A DNA stretch of 34,091 bases from Candidatus Sumerlaeia bacterium (GTDB taxonomy: Bacteria > Sumerlaeota > Sumerlaeia > JADFCW01). Position numbers and translations under genes: made by a program. Positions 29,983 through 34,091 of the stretch are shown here, piece after piece. Positions within the stretch are counted from its first letter, which is position 1. Each line of letters opens with the position of its first letter. The stretch covers positions 1 through 34,091 of the forward strand of contig JAOAGV010000045.1 of NCBI GenBank assembly GCA_026415575.1, given 5' to 3'. The notes beneath the pieces are model-generated. The model did not search any database. It was not told the DNA's origin and was given only the letters and a program-made list of their open reading frames with translations.

Positions 29983-30117
29983 CTTTCGATTCCTACCCTA
30001 TTGGGTCTGAGAATTCCGGACAGAATCAAAACGCCCGATGCAAACCCGCCCGGATCCTTTTCGCAACGATTTCTTTCGCGGAAAATGGGAGCGATTGCAG
30101 TTTTCCGTGGAGTTCAG

Positions 30118-30146
30118 TTGACAGAGAAATGGCCGTGTTATACATT
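30118..30146 (+). promoter_or_regulatory. Candidate sigma-70-type promoter for the PilB/GspE gene
   Basis: TTGACA at 30118-30123 is a perfect -35. TACATT at 30141-30146 with a 17-bp spacer matches TATAAT at 4 of 6; the overlapping TATACA at 30139-30144 would have a 15-bp spacer. It lies in the gap between divergent genes (MFS minus, PilB/GspE plus), about 130 bp before the start. Pattern only. Confidence 0.45.
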
Positions 30147-30268
30147 CTTTTGTGTGTCTGGCCAACGGACACGTTTTTGGTTGACGCCGCAGGAAGGTTG
30201 GAGGCACAATTTCCCTTTGATAGGACGCGTACAGCAAAGGGAATTGCGTTTCCTTTGTGAAGGATGGC

Positions 30269-32149
30269 ATGACCATGGCACCGGATAAACCCACCACGCC
30301 AATCCCCATGGACCCTCGCCGGGTGGTCCCGCGCGGCGAGGAGGCGAATCCATTGAAAAAGGGCAATGAGGTCGCGCCCCCCTTGGAAAAGGCCCAAAAG
30401 GCTGTCGCACGCATCGGCGGCGACGGCCGCGGCCTTCCCGACAACTCGGCCCTGATCGGCCGCGTTCTCGAACAAGCCGGCTTGGTCTCGTCGTCCATGC
30501 TCCGCGACATTCAGGAGTCGCTTCAGAACGAGGCCGGTATGACCTTGCGCAAGGCCGTGGTCAACACCGGCTTGGTCCGCGAGGAAGAGATTCTCGACGC
30601 CATCGCCCAAGAAATGGGCATGGAGAAGGTGTCGCTCCACGAGATCAAAGTCACGCCCGAACTTCTCGCCGCCATTGATCCCAAGGTCGCCCGCAACTAT
30701 CGCGTTTTTCCCGTCCGCGTCACACCGGACACGATCTACGTGGCTCTGGCCGACCCGCTCAACATTCAGACGACCGACGACCTCGAACGGATTTTGCAGA
30801 AAAAAGTGGTGGGCCTCATTGCGCCGGAAGATGAAATCATCCATGCCCTGCGCCGCTACTATGAGGCCGACGAGGTCAATCAGCTTTACGAGGATTTTAC
30901 GACGGAAGTTACCAAGGAAGAGGCAAAAGACTACTATTCGAACATCAATCTCGACGAGGTGCAGGAGATCAACCAAGCACCGGTCGTAAAGTTTGTGGAT
31001 TTGATTTTCAAACAAGCCATCCATGACCGCGCGAGCGACATTCACATCGAGCCGGCCAAGAACAGTCTCGTCGTGCGGTTCCGCATTGACGGCGTTCTGC
31101 AGGAGATCCCATCGCCGCCCAAGAAATGGCAGAAGGCCATCATCTCGCGGCTCAAAGTGCTTTCCGGCATGGACCTGGCCGAAAAACGCCTGCCGCAGGA
31201 CGGCCGCATCAAGCTGAACCTGCAGGGCGGAAAGAAACTCATTGACGTCCGTGTCTCGGCCCTGCCGGCCATCTACGGCGAAAGCATCGTCATGCGTCTG
31301 CTCGACCAGAGCAGCGTGCTTCTCGGTCTGTCCGACGTCGGGTTCCTTCCGGACAACATCCGGCTGTTCGAGCAGCTCATCCGCGCCCCCAACGGCGTCA
31401 TCCTGATGACGGGCCCAACCGGTTCGGGCAAAACCACGACGCTGTATTCGGCGCTTTCGACACTGAACACCCCCGACCGAAAAATCATCACCATCGAAAA
31501 CCCCGTCGAATATATGCTCGAAGGCATCTGTCAAGTGCAGGTGGACGAGAGCATTGATTTGACGTTCGCGGCATGTTTGCGATCGGCGCTGCGCCAAGCC
31601 CCGGAAATCCTGATGGTCGGCGAAATCCGCGACATGGAGACCGCCGAGATCGGCATCCGCGCCGCCCTGACCGGCCACTTGGTCTTCAGCACGCTCCACA
31701 CCAACGACGCGCCGGGCGCTACGACCCGTTTGATTGACATCGGCGTCAAGCCGTTTCTCGTGTCTTCGTCCATTCAAGCGGTGATTGCCCAGCGGCTCGT
31801 GCGGCGCATCTGCCACCAGTGTGCGGAAAGCTATCGGCCGCGCGAAGAAGAAATCCGCGAACTGGGCTATGACCCCGCCAAGTATCGCGACTACGAGTTC
31901 CGCCGCGGCAAAGGATGCGACCGCTGCGGCTTCAGCGGCTATCGCGGCCGAACGGCCATTCACGAAATCTTTGTTCCCGACTCGACCGCCCGCCAGATGA
32001 TCATCCGGTCGGAGTCCGCCGCCCGCATCAAACGCTATGCGGTCAGCAAAGGCATGCGCACTCTGCGAATGGACGGCTGGGAAAAAGTCCTCCTCGGCCA
32101 AACCACTACGACCGAAGTCATGCGCATCACGCAAAGCGACGTGAGCTGA
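30269..32149 (+). CDS. pilB: Type IV pilus / type II secretion assembly ATPase (PilB/GspE)
   Basis: A 626-residue hexameric motor ATPase that drives pilus extension or secretion. Domains: a disordered N-terminus, a MshEN-type N-domain (about 62-200, LIGRVLEQAGLVSS...), then the ATPase core with SDIHIEPA (256-263), Walker A GPTGSGKTT (382-390), Walker B ILMVGEIRD, the His box GHLVFSTLHTNDA and a tetracysteine zinc site (C515, C518, C550, C553: RICHQC and GCDRCG). The usual RQDPD motif reads RQAPE. Starts at GTG 30257, ATG 30269 and ATG 30275 are possible; AAGGA at 30260-30264 favours one of the ATGs. No PilC or PilT is adjacent, so pilus versus type II secretion is undecided. Confidence 0.93.
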   Translation: MTMAPDKPTTPIPMDPRRVVPRGEEANPLKKGNEVAPPLEKAQKAVARIGGDGRGLPDNSALIGRVLEQAGLVSSSMLRDIQESLQNEAGMTLRKAVVNTGLVREEEILDAIAQEMGMEKVSLHEIKVTPELLAAIDPKVARNYRVFPVRVTPDTIYVALADPLNIQTTDDLERILQKKVVGLIAPEDEIIHALRRYYEADEVNQLYEDFTTEVTKEEAKDYYSNINLDEVQEINQAPVVKFVDLIFKQAIHDRASDIHIEPAKNSLVVRFRIDGVLQEIPSPPKKWQKAIISRLKVLSGMDLAEKRLPQDGRIKLNLQGGKKLIDVRVSALPAIYGESIVMRLLDQSSVLLGLSDVGFLPDNIRLFEQLIRAPNGVILMTGPTGSGKTTTLYSALSTLNTPDRKIITIENPVEYMLEGICQVQVDESIDLTFAACLRSALRQAPEILMVGEIRDMETAEIGIRAALTGHLVFSTLHTNDAPGATTRLIDIGVKPFLVSSSIQAVIAQRLVRRICHQCAESYRPREEEIRELGYDPAKYRDYEFRRGKGCDRCGFSGYRGRTAIHEIFVPDSTARQMIIRSESAARIKRYAVSKGMRTLRMDGWEKVLLGQTTTTEVMRITQSDVS

Positions 32150-32643
32150 AGCACCCGCCGGCCGACAACTGAACCCGTCAAACAGCCGCAGACACTGCGC
32201 GATTGGCTCTTTCGCGAGCGAAAGCAAGACCCGCCGCGTGACGCCGGAAAAATCCCCCGCACAGTGCCAAGGCCTTTGGACTGCGGCAGCCATGCTGCCG
32301 CTTTGCTGGAGGCGTCCCTCGTCAGACAGAGCGTCGGCGCTGGGGGAGAACTCTCGCTTGGCAGGGTTTAACTTGGCGCAAAACAAAGCGGCAGCATGGC
32401 TGCCGCACTCCAAAGCGCACGCAGATTTTTGCATAATGACAAGGGCGCTGCCTCAAGCCTTATCCTTTTCGCCCTTCCTGCCCCAAAAGCCACAGCATGA
32501 TCAAATGACCGTCTCGCGGTTTCGGGGGATGGCGTTGGTTGCCGGCCTGCATTCCGAATCCGGTTGACAAAAAGCGCAGCGGGATTGGAAAAGCTGGCCC
32601 GTTGTATGACGAAAACGTCCAATTCGCAGGGGGAGCCAAAGTC
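32150..32643. other. Intergenic region with REP-like inverted repeats
   Basis: A 494-bp stretch without a gene. It holds the small hairpin CTTTCG-CGAG-CGAAAG at 32209-32224, the large BIME-like element at 32274-32415, a TTTTT run at 32426-32430 after the right arm, and a perfect TTGACA at 32564-32569 (no matching -10 seen) upstream of the flavoprotein gene. Confidence 0.6.
32274..32415. repeat. REP/BIME-like element: two palindromic arms in inverted orientation
   Basis: The left arm (32274-32305) and right arm (32384-32415) are 32-bp sequences, inverted relative to each other, that agree at 31 of 32 positions. Each contains the palindrome GCGGCAGCCATGCTGCCGC or its complement, an 8-bp stem with a 3-nt loop, flanked by CTTTGG/CTTTG. 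The arms are 78 bp apart. This is the layout of paired REP sequences (BIMEs), which are usually moved by RAYT transposases; no such transposase gene is in the window. It may also act as a transcript-end structure for the PilB/GspE gene, whose stop is 124 bp upstream. Confidence 0.85.
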
Positions 32644-34091
32644 ATGGGCAGGCGGAAAAAAACAGGGCTGGGAGAGACGCCCCGCCCTTCGGTGTATTGC
32701 TATAACACGGTGATTGTCGGCAGCGGCGCCGCCGCATTGAACTGCGCAGAACATCTCTATCGCGGCTTTCAGGAACGCGGCGTCGAGAAGCCCGAACGCC
32801 TGATCGCCATCGTGACCGAGGGGATCGGCAAGGGTACGTCGCACAATTCCGGGTCGGACAAGCAGACCTACTATCGCGTCGGCGTGCAGGACGGTGTGGC
32901 CGACTCGCCTCTGGATTTTGCGCACTCGCTGACAGCGGGCGGCTGCTGCCATGGCGATCTGGCGCTTCTGGAGGGCGAAAATTCGCAACGGGAGTTTTAC
33001 CATTTGGTGGAAAACGGCGTTCCGTTTCCGCACAACGAGCGGGGCGGGTTTGTAGGCTACAAGACCGACCACGACCCGCGCCAGCGCGCCACGTCGGCCG
33101 GCCCGTGGACGTCGCGCTTCATGGTGAGGAAATCTTTGGCGCAATTGCAACGCTACGGCGTCCGCTTTTTTAACGAGTATTATATGACGGACCTTCTGAC
33201 CGTAGGCACGGGCGATGAACGGCGGGCGGTCGGGATTCTGGCTGTGGACGCCGCACGGCTGGATCAACCTGACCGCGGTCTGGCCATCTTCTTTGCCCTC
33301 AACGTGGTGGTGGCCACGGGCGGACCGGGCGATATGTATGAGGTGACGGTGTATCCGCCCGGACAAATGGGCAGTCATGGCGCGCTGTTCGAGGCCGGCG
33401 CCATTGCCTGCAATCTCACGGAATCGCAGTTCGGCTTGGCCTCGATCGAACCGCGCTGGAACTTGTCGGGCACGTATCAGCAAGTCATTCCGCGCTATTA
33501 CAGCACGGAAGCCGACGGAAGCGACCCTCAGGATTTTCTGAATGCGTATTTCCCCGACATGGCCACCATGGCCAGCAACATCTTTCTCAAGGGCTATCAG
33601 TGGCCGTTTGATCCGCAGCGGGCCAGCGGTTCTTCACTGATAGACCTTGCCGTGTTTAATGAATCGGTGTTTCGCGGCCGGCGGGTTTTCATGGACTTCC
33701 GCGAAAACCCGCGTCCTTCGCCCGGCTGGAAACCGTTTGCCATCGCCGACCTTGCCGACGAGGCCCGCGTGTATCTGGAACGCTCGGGTGCCCTGCAGGA
33801 AACACCGATTGAGCGGCTGCGCAAGATGAACCAGCCCAGCATTGAGCTGTATCGAGAGAAGAACAAGGACCTTGCGCGCGAGCCGCTCGAAATTGCCGTC
33901 TGCGCCCAGCACAACAACGGTGGCTTCGCCGTGAATCTCTGGTGGGAGTCCAACATTTCCGGTCTGTTTGTCATCGGCGAGTTGGCGGGCACGCACGGGG
34001 TCAAGCGGCCGGGCGGGTCGGCCCTCAACAGCGGGCAGGTCGGTGGCTTGCGGGCGGCACAAGTCATTGTGCATCGGGGCAATGCGAAGGC
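32644..34091 (+). CDS. Fumarate reductase/succinate dehydrogenase-like FAD flavoprotein, 5' part (partial)
   Basis: The frame runs off the right end of the window after 482 codons. The FAD-binding Rossmann motif IVGSGAAALNCAEHL lies at residues 24-38. Near the visible end are AQHNNGGFAVN and GLFVIGELAGTHGVKRPGGSALNSG, which correspond to the HxTMGG and GLYAAGE-A-HGANRxGGNSL regions of the SdhA/FrdA/NadB fold, but divergent. ATG 32644 has GGGGGAG 8 nt upstream, so the start is secure. The protein is a flavin-linked oxidoreductase; the substrate is not identified. No iron-sulfur or membrane-anchor subunit is visible, as the downstream part is outside the window. Confidence 0.85.
   Translation, partial: MGRRKKTGLGETPRPSVYCYNTVIVGSGAAALNCAEHLYRGFQERGVEKPERLIAIVTEGIGKGTSHNSGSDKQTYYRVGVQDGVADSPLDFAHSLTAGGCCHGDLALLEGENSQREFYHLVENGVPFPHNERGGFVGYKTDHDPRQRATSAGPWTSRFMVRKSLAQLQRYGVRFFNEYYMTDLLTVGTGDERRAVGILAVDAARLDQPDRGLAIFFALNVVVATGGPGDMYEVTVYPPGQMGSHGALFEAGAIACNLTESQFGLASIEPRWNLSGTYQQVIPRYYSTEADGSDPQDFLNAYFPDMATMASNIFLKGYQWPFDPQRASGSSLIDLAVFNESVFRGRRVFMDFRENPRPSPGWKPFAIADLADEARVYLERSGALQETPIERLRKMNQPSIELYREKNKDLAREPLEIAVCAQHNNGGFAVNLWWESNISGLFVIGELAGTHGVKRPGGSALNSGQVGGLRAAQVIVHRGNAK

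Follow-up and report, generated by a model that had tools for sequence, protein, structure and literature searches.

A REPIN carrying TTTGGA(G/C)T tags in a Sumerlaeia genome, and a RAYT clade found beside similarly tagged palindromes in relatives

The window, by which we mean the whole stretch of 34,091 nt analysed here, is contig C195 of a Candidatus Sumerlaeia bacterium genome (G000; 4.67 Mb in 255 contigs, 92.6% complete). Two inverted palindromes lie in it between a putative pilB gene and a putative flavoprotein gene (Table 1). The arms of this pair are 32 nt long, 97% complementary and 78 nt apart. As given in a preliminary description of the sequence, they match at 31 of 32 positions and each contains its own hairpin; the limits 32274-32415 proved correct for the pair, and homology with many other copies extends on both sides, from about 32213 to about 32529. 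Five matches to the hairpin core with up to three mismatches were found in the window compared with 0.19 expected in shuffled sequences (largest value 2), four of them arising from the two palindromes read on both strands and one, with three mismatches, lying elsewhere. Folding of the 142-nt pair as single-stranded DNA gave -48.9 kcal/mol against -27.4 kcal/mol (sd 2.7) for shuffles, a z value of -8.0. A probably spurious minus-strand ORF (30026-32434) translates the REPs in frame; in-frame REP peptides are of the ALECGSHAAA- or SGSKLPHSK-type and also form the N-terminal part of some RAYT frames (L268, L291).

Table 1. Features of the locus (window coordinates) and copies of a second REPIN subtype (locus coordinates)
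Feature	Position	Strand	Remarks
Upstream gene, 630-aa ORF, putative pilB	30257..32149	+	name from the preliminary description
Composite left arm	32213..32273	+	common to other full copies; boundary approximate
Left REP arm	32274..32305	+	tag CTTTGGACT, hairpin, TTTG; 31/32 against right arm
Left hairpin GCGGCAGC-CAT-GCTGCCGC	32283..32301	+	core search, 0 mismatches
REP-pair spacer, 78 nt	32306..32383	+	conserved among copies
Right REP arm, inverted	32384..32415	-	tag TTTGGAGT, facing outward
Right hairpin, core GCGGCAGC-CAT-GCTGCCGC	32388..32406	-	core search, 0 mismatches
Composite right arm	32416..32511	+	common to other full copies
Degraded right outer palindrome TCTCGCGGTTTCGGGGGA	32512..32529	+	3 differences from TCTCCCGANNTCGGGAGA
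Downstream gene, putative flavoprotein	32539..34089	+	name from the preliminary description; start and 3' end provisional
Second-subtype REPIN copies	L125:6029, L126:6142, L127:729 and 4613, L129:6114, L140:10138, L141:13880, L138:6082		

When the whole of G000 was searched with the core, allowing three mismatches, 234 and 227 matches were obtained compared with 2 and 2 for the control; the core is a palindrome, hence one site can be counted on both strands. An oriented pattern that includes the tag (TTTGGANTGCGGCAGC-loop-GCTGCCGC) gave 157 sites (83 + 74) and none in the control. The same pattern was found at 109 + 101 sites (control 0) in the only congener searched (G001), and was present in nine of 39 genomes of the class, G000 included, and in none of 22 more distant genomes. 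A blastn search with the element returned at least 132 matches (40 of 178 candidates scored) in which the spacer was conserved. Among 31 aligned copies, selected for similarity to the window copy, mean pairwise identity was 0.93 in the REPs and 0.79 in the spacer, falling to 0.40-0.47 in the near flanks; the hairpin stems were conserved at 0.94-0.98. At one end of each REP lies a conserved unpaired tag, TTTGGA(G/C)T, in place of the GTAG/GTGG or CGTC foot. Identity between the two arms of one element (0.899) did not exceed that between arms of different elements (0.904), and 4821 of 5000 permutations gave a value at least as high. The near-perfect identity of the arms had been read as a sign of recent spread or selection, and the permutation test gives no support to the first of these inferences for the window copy: arm likeness is a property of the family and no sign of recency. 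Constraint on the hairpin found support in the stem conservation and in the compensation described next.

REPs of the same kind were sought in other phyla with a pattern in which the tag was fixed and two stem positions were left free. Of 68 Hydrogenedentota genomes 21 carried this pattern, as did 11 of 288 Verrucomicrobiota genomes, with no match in either control; being strict, the patterns used overlook the CTTGGA and TATGGA forms. Among the matches listed, the free positions were paired in 267 of 290 cells in Hydrogenedentota (shuffled mean 121) and in 75 of 78 in Verrucomicrobiota (shuffled mean 42). Compensation was also evident when only distinct forms among those matches were counted, with 61 of 74 paired against 28 when shuffled in the former phylum and 43 of 46 against 21 in the latter. 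These comparisons support a constraint on the hairpin.

Placement relative to genes was determined with a simple purpose-written gene caller on 354 kb of G000 including the window (243 genes). Although 81% of this DNA was called coding, 55 of 60 sampled REPs were intergenic (p = 3e-34 with REPs taken as independent; p = 1.5e-18 for 28 of 30 clusters). Clusters lay between tandem genes in 12 cases, divergent genes in ten and convergent genes in six, with two in genes and one at an edge; the corresponding figures for all gaps longer than 80 bp were 72, 34 and 26 for tandem, divergent and convergent gaps. REP clusters are thus not concentrated at 3' ends, which makes a terminator role unlikely, and a Rho-independent terminator was rejected because GCTGCCGCTTTG contains only three T and convergent gaps are not preferred. 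A structured RNA family was likewise discarded, since an Rfam search of six loci gave no match to the element at the gathering score.

The pairing of the REPs differed between the two congeners. In 20 stretches of G000 containing 58 REPs, all 22 inverted pairs had their tags facing outward with start positions 112-114 nt apart, and none faced inward; the other REPs comprised tandem neighbours (4 and 2) and eight singles. In G001, 69 loci, all chosen by exact REP match, contained 144 REPs forming 45 tag-inward pairs, 43 of them at spacings of 48-74, and nine tag-outward pairs, the others being tandem (8 and 5) or single (21). Start spacings of the inward pairs clustered near 56, 64 and 74. The two arrangements fit a published rule of thumb, according to which spacers are conserved in head-head dimers and vary in tail-tail dimers (PMC3733652).

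These data bear on whether the element is a functional intergenic RNA or DNA element, such as a terminator, mRNA stabiliser or gyrase/IHF-type site, maintained by selection without recent mobility. The strength of the hairpins, the 0.94-0.98 identity of their stems, the conserved spacer and the stem compensation in related REPs all accord with such a role, but the distribution of clusters (divergent 10, tandem 12, convergent 6) lacks a terminator-like bias to 3' ends, the six loci had no Rfam match at the gathering score, and the congener pairs the same REP mostly in the opposite sense and at other spacings, so that we regard this explanation as unlikely. No host function for the window copy was found in this analysis. 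The palindromes are short, present in high copy and mostly intergenic, as in REPs; they alternate in orientation with spacer motifs between them and form mosaics, as in BIMEs; and the inverted REPs with their spacer form a long hairpin dispersed as a unit, as in REPINs. The REP/BIME identity proposed in the preliminary description is thus borne out by hundreds of copies, by 55 of 60 intergenic positions and by the single layout of all 22 inverted pairs, and the genome-wide search it had suggested returned many copies rather than one, mostly intergenic and with no preference for 3' ends.

The REP pair often lies within a larger mosaic of approximately 340 bp, and the region 32213-32529 of the window recurs in many copies. 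Eighteen full copies end in the palindrome TCTCCCGAAATCGGGAGA and its complement; the span between outer palindromes was 314-350 bp in the nine of these in which both were recognised. No left outer palindrome, TCTCCCGAAATCGGGAGA elsewhere, could be recognised in the window copy. A profile of full copies searched against 41 G000 loci gave 56 non-overlapping copies covering at least 100 model positions, of which two at locus ends were dropped. With palindrome-edge ranges chosen after inspection of the profile matches, 44 of the remaining 54 copies were bounded by palindrome edges, running from outer to outer palindrome (16), REP to REP (13), outer palindrome to REP (9) or REP to outer palindrome (6), and ten had other boundaries. 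Most copies therefore have their breakpoints at palindromes, as expected of a mosaic built from palindrome-bounded modules. A second REPIN subtype with a related yet different spacer was observed in G000, several of its copies lying in an GTGGCCAAAGGCCAC flanking context (Table 1).

The 16 copies that span from one outer palindrome to the other, and the mutual inversion of those palindromes, might suggest a classical DDE-type MITE of approximately 340 bp in which the outer palindromes are terminal inverted repeats and the REP pair is merely internal. Against this, no significant target duplication was seen for the 16 full and 13 REPIN-only copies, whose ends were placed approximately: values as high as that of the full copies were reached by 201, 89, 38 and 300 of 300 shuffles for k = 4, 5, 6 and 8, the k = 6 value being five shared words compared with 2.2 in shuffles. 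In addition, 13 copies run from REP to REP only and 15 end at one REP, a second carrier context is known, and matches to the element in G001 outside two genes are mostly confined to the REP (among the matches listed). A DDE-type MITE is accordingly very unlikely. A clean empty site was not found in G001, where pilB is followed by another gene with no element between them and the flavoprotein gene is on a separate contig that ends just short of the boundary.

A candidate partner was found in relatives. In the Hydrogenedentota genome G063 a Y1 gene sits between clusters of TTTGGA-tagged REPs, and tblastn with this gene against the sampled loci identified relatives at 50-57% identity, several of them also beside such REPs, and one broken relative in two pieces (44 and 63% identity). 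Profile A1, built from five RAYTs, was then used on 80 genomes (39 Sumerlaeota and 41 Hydrogenedentota, 21 with and 20 without the REP) and detected 17 strong genes (E < 1e-60) in Sumerlaeota and Hydrogenedentota. One of these contains an in-frame TGA and two are truncated at contig ends; a gene broken into two pieces was found in G088, and partial genes elsewhere. The 17 strong genes form one group with 100/99 support in a tree of 54 RAYTs, for which midpoint rooting alone was used. Of three members tested with the NCBIfam model for REP-associated tyrosine transposases, two scored above the cut-off of 80 bits (100 and 88) and the third just under it (77.8); a clade profile also matched E. coli TnpAREP (4er8, E = 3.4e-10). 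PF01797 could not settle the partner question because three clade genes scored only 16-26 bits (cut-off 23).

The tagged palindrome is physically linked to this clade. A relaxed tag, [TC][TA]TGGANTGC, written after inspection of the clade loci, occurred within 300 bp of 14 of the 17 genes (on both sides of 11) compared with none of 57 other Y1 loci (p = 1.5e-12, a value that, like all linkage and motif p values given here, is made too small by related rows); two of the three clade loci without it have nearly no flank on one side. The strict tag TTTGGA[GC]TGC was found within the same distance of ten of the 17 genes and none of the 57 loci. When the three loci first met through their REPs (L295, L297, L299) were left out, the counts were 11 of 14 for the relaxed tag (p = 1.4e-10) and seven of 14 for the strict tag (p = 2.6e-6), both subject to the same inflation. 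A scan of 30 other Y1 loci, comprising 29 from relatives and one from G000 itself and including clade member L119, gave 11 with a palindrome common to both flanks, in six of which TAG immediately precedes the stem. The exact GGCAGC stem was absent beside the Y1 genes at all of 29 loci; that pattern was too strict, as the 29 include a clade gene (L119) whose stem is different.

NHYH was present in 16 of 17 clade RAYTs, and the tryptophan of all 17 is followed by F, H or Y. With the sister group added this held for 21 of 21, whereas 27 of the 33 others have Q (p = 1e-9, too small for the reason given); one of the six exceptions is the RAYT on contig C168 of G000 (WH). Most of the other RAYTs compared have Q after this W, as does E. 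coli TnpAREP, whose residue at this place, Q95, is among those described in the GTAG-contacting region (PMC8266576, PMC6006769).

The clade RAYT was not found with profile A1 in G000 or G001, whose assemblies are 92.6% and 94% complete, and because of this incompleteness its absence is not final. At least six REP sites, among the matches listed, are no more than 60 bp from a contig start; REPs can therefore interrupt the assembly, and a RAYT flanked by them could have gone missing. The sole A1 match in G000 at E <= 0.01 is C168:25073 (E = 1.4e-10), and those in G001 are a gene on C392 (3e-29) and a broken one at C236. By the NCBIfam model both C168 (81.9 bits) and C392 (84.5 bits) are RAYTs; in the tree C392 falls in the sister group of the clade and C168 elsewhere. 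The C168 gene (24680-25456, L325) is a different RAYT frame of 259 aa flanked by GAGCACCGGCGAGCCGCCGGCGGT palindromes, none of which occurred in 315 kb of sampled G000 stretches. PF01797 detected a single gene in G000 (C178:102352), a Y1 transposase of 154 aa (C178:102262-102897, L062) between CTAG-footed CCCAGGGCAACGCCCTGGG hairpins; these hairpins are dispersed, with about 25 copies among the matches listed, and an array of degenerate repeats lies upstream of the gene. It was rejected as the partner on account of those flanking hairpins. The window REP was absent from the examined flanks of C168, C178 and C392, the latter two genes lying near contig ends and C178 having approximately 300 bp on one side.

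The preliminary description had expected a RAYT in this genome, and one is present by the NCBIfam model (C168) together with a Y1 transposase (C178); the search it had proposed for such a gene flanked by the same palindrome found none in this genome, where C168 and C178 lack the window palindrome in their examined flanks and the partner clade was not detected. A RAYT flanked by this REP family was seen in relatives only, and neither G000 nor G001 yielded a cognate RAYT flanked by the same REP. The REPs of G000 could now be moved, like those of G001, by another RAYT, for example the sister-group gene on C392, which groups with the clade at joint support 95/95, shares NHYH and W-F with it and is flanked by palindromes with GGAGTTC or GTAGTTC tags, including a GGAGT core like that of the window tag. 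Since no sister-group member was found in G000 and the window REP is absent from the examined flanks of C392, C168 and C178 (C392 and C178 near contig ends), we consider it improbable that another RAYT now moves these REPs.

As the clade RAYT was not found and the other RAYTs of G000 and G001 have other palindromes, the REPs look orphaned, and orphan status is probable for those of this genome. It is common for the REPs to occur where the clade RAYT is not found. Of 21 REP-positive Hydrogenedentota, 16 had no match below E = 1e-30; the clade RAYT was found at that threshold in the other five (in one as a broken gene only) and in four of 20 REP-negative genomes. Among nine REP-positive Sumerlaeota it was found in two only, G004 and G014. 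REP and clade RAYT were thus not shown to track each other across the Sumerlaeota or the 41 Hydrogenedentota genomes. E. coli genomes that lack a RAYT and retain REPINs have been described (PMC8049555). Two clade RAYTs, one broken (G088, C648) and one truncated (G107, C52), still adjoin TTTGGA REPs, which suggests repeated decay of the enzyme.

Taken together, the window element is best explained, with a probability of about 0.8, as a REPIN with TTTGGA(G/C)T tags that belongs to a dispersed family and whose cognate enzyme is one RAYT clade. It is very probable that a transposase, still present beside like hairpins in some relatives, once copied the REPs of the window. Against this explanation stand the failure to find the clade RAYT in G000 and G001, the REP-richest genomes among those searched, and the lack of co-occurrence of REP and clade RAYT across genomes. 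We infer from sequence both the copying by a partner RAYT and the movement of REPINs itself. The RAYT would have bound the folded single strand with the tag as guide, cut beside the tag and pasted the REPIN elsewhere without target duplication; pairs may later have become embedded in larger palindrome-ended units and been copied along with them. With the enzyme now presumably absent or unassembled in this genome, the copies would be orphans in slow decay, perhaps retained by weak selection on their hairpins.

The element is therefore of an ordinary kind (REPIN/BIME) with an unusual class of tag, and its partner RAYT clade has been identified in relatives. A more tentative proposal, to which we give somewhat less than even odds, is that TTTGGA(G/C)T palindromes and RAYTs with NHYH and W-[F,Y,H] form a separate tag class in at least two poorly cultured phyla, with REPs in a third, in which the residue after W changed with the tag and the enzyme was repeatedly lost while high-copy REPs persisted. 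If so, the joint change of residue and tag would provide a code, linking transposase and REP guide, that can be read. A RAYT clade with its own tag is a natural second system in which to test how TnpAREP recognises its guide. G000 and G001, with the same REP in opposite pairing and the partner enzyme found in neither, allow REP persistence and rearrangement after enzyme loss to be tested. Published automatic searches for REPs rely on a GTAG-type foot (PMC6006769), and systems with other tags can therefore be missed.

Among known systems, the REPINs and RAYTs of Pseudomonas fluorescens SBW25 (Bertels and Rainey 2011, PMC3116915) likewise have inverted REP doublets as their unit, at a fixed spacing of 71 or 110 bp (112-114 here), are intergenic, form a long hairpin and are linked to a RAYT with the same REP, here in relatives. 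Unlike those of SBW25, the REPs described here carry a TTTGGA(G/C)T tag, no cognate RAYT was found in their genome, the spacer is conserved and the pair often sits inside larger units that end in palindromes. Members of the GTAG and CGTC superfamilies (Di Nocera et al. 2013, PMC3733652) resemble the present REPs in being small stem-loops that end on one side in an unpaired tag. Spacers there are conserved in head-head dimers, the arrangement of G000, and variable in tail-tail dimers, the arrangement of G001, and certain dimers sit within long palindromes, but the tag here is neither GTAG nor CGTC, and the main text of that paper contains no word starting TTTGGA or GGAG. A literature search with REP and peptide strings returned only papers that were unrelated by title and opening of the abstract, and the supplementary tables of PMC6006769 may list the tag. 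Feet other than GTAG are already known in principle, since that paper describes RAYT-like genes with non-GTAG palindromes: subclass 2.6, mostly in Bacteroidetes, with weaker atypical structures and YIH[QN]NP with WQ, and class 3 TnpAY1, with a CnGA foot. By the published description neither fits the combination of tag and motifs in this clade. TnpAREP subclass 2.8 of the same paper is tabulated there with NHYH and W followed by Y or H, as against F, H or Y here; it is described as cyanobacterial in that sample and flanked by GT[AG]G REPs, unlike the present clade, which occurs in Sumerlaeota and Hydrogenedentota with REPs of the TTTGGAST type.
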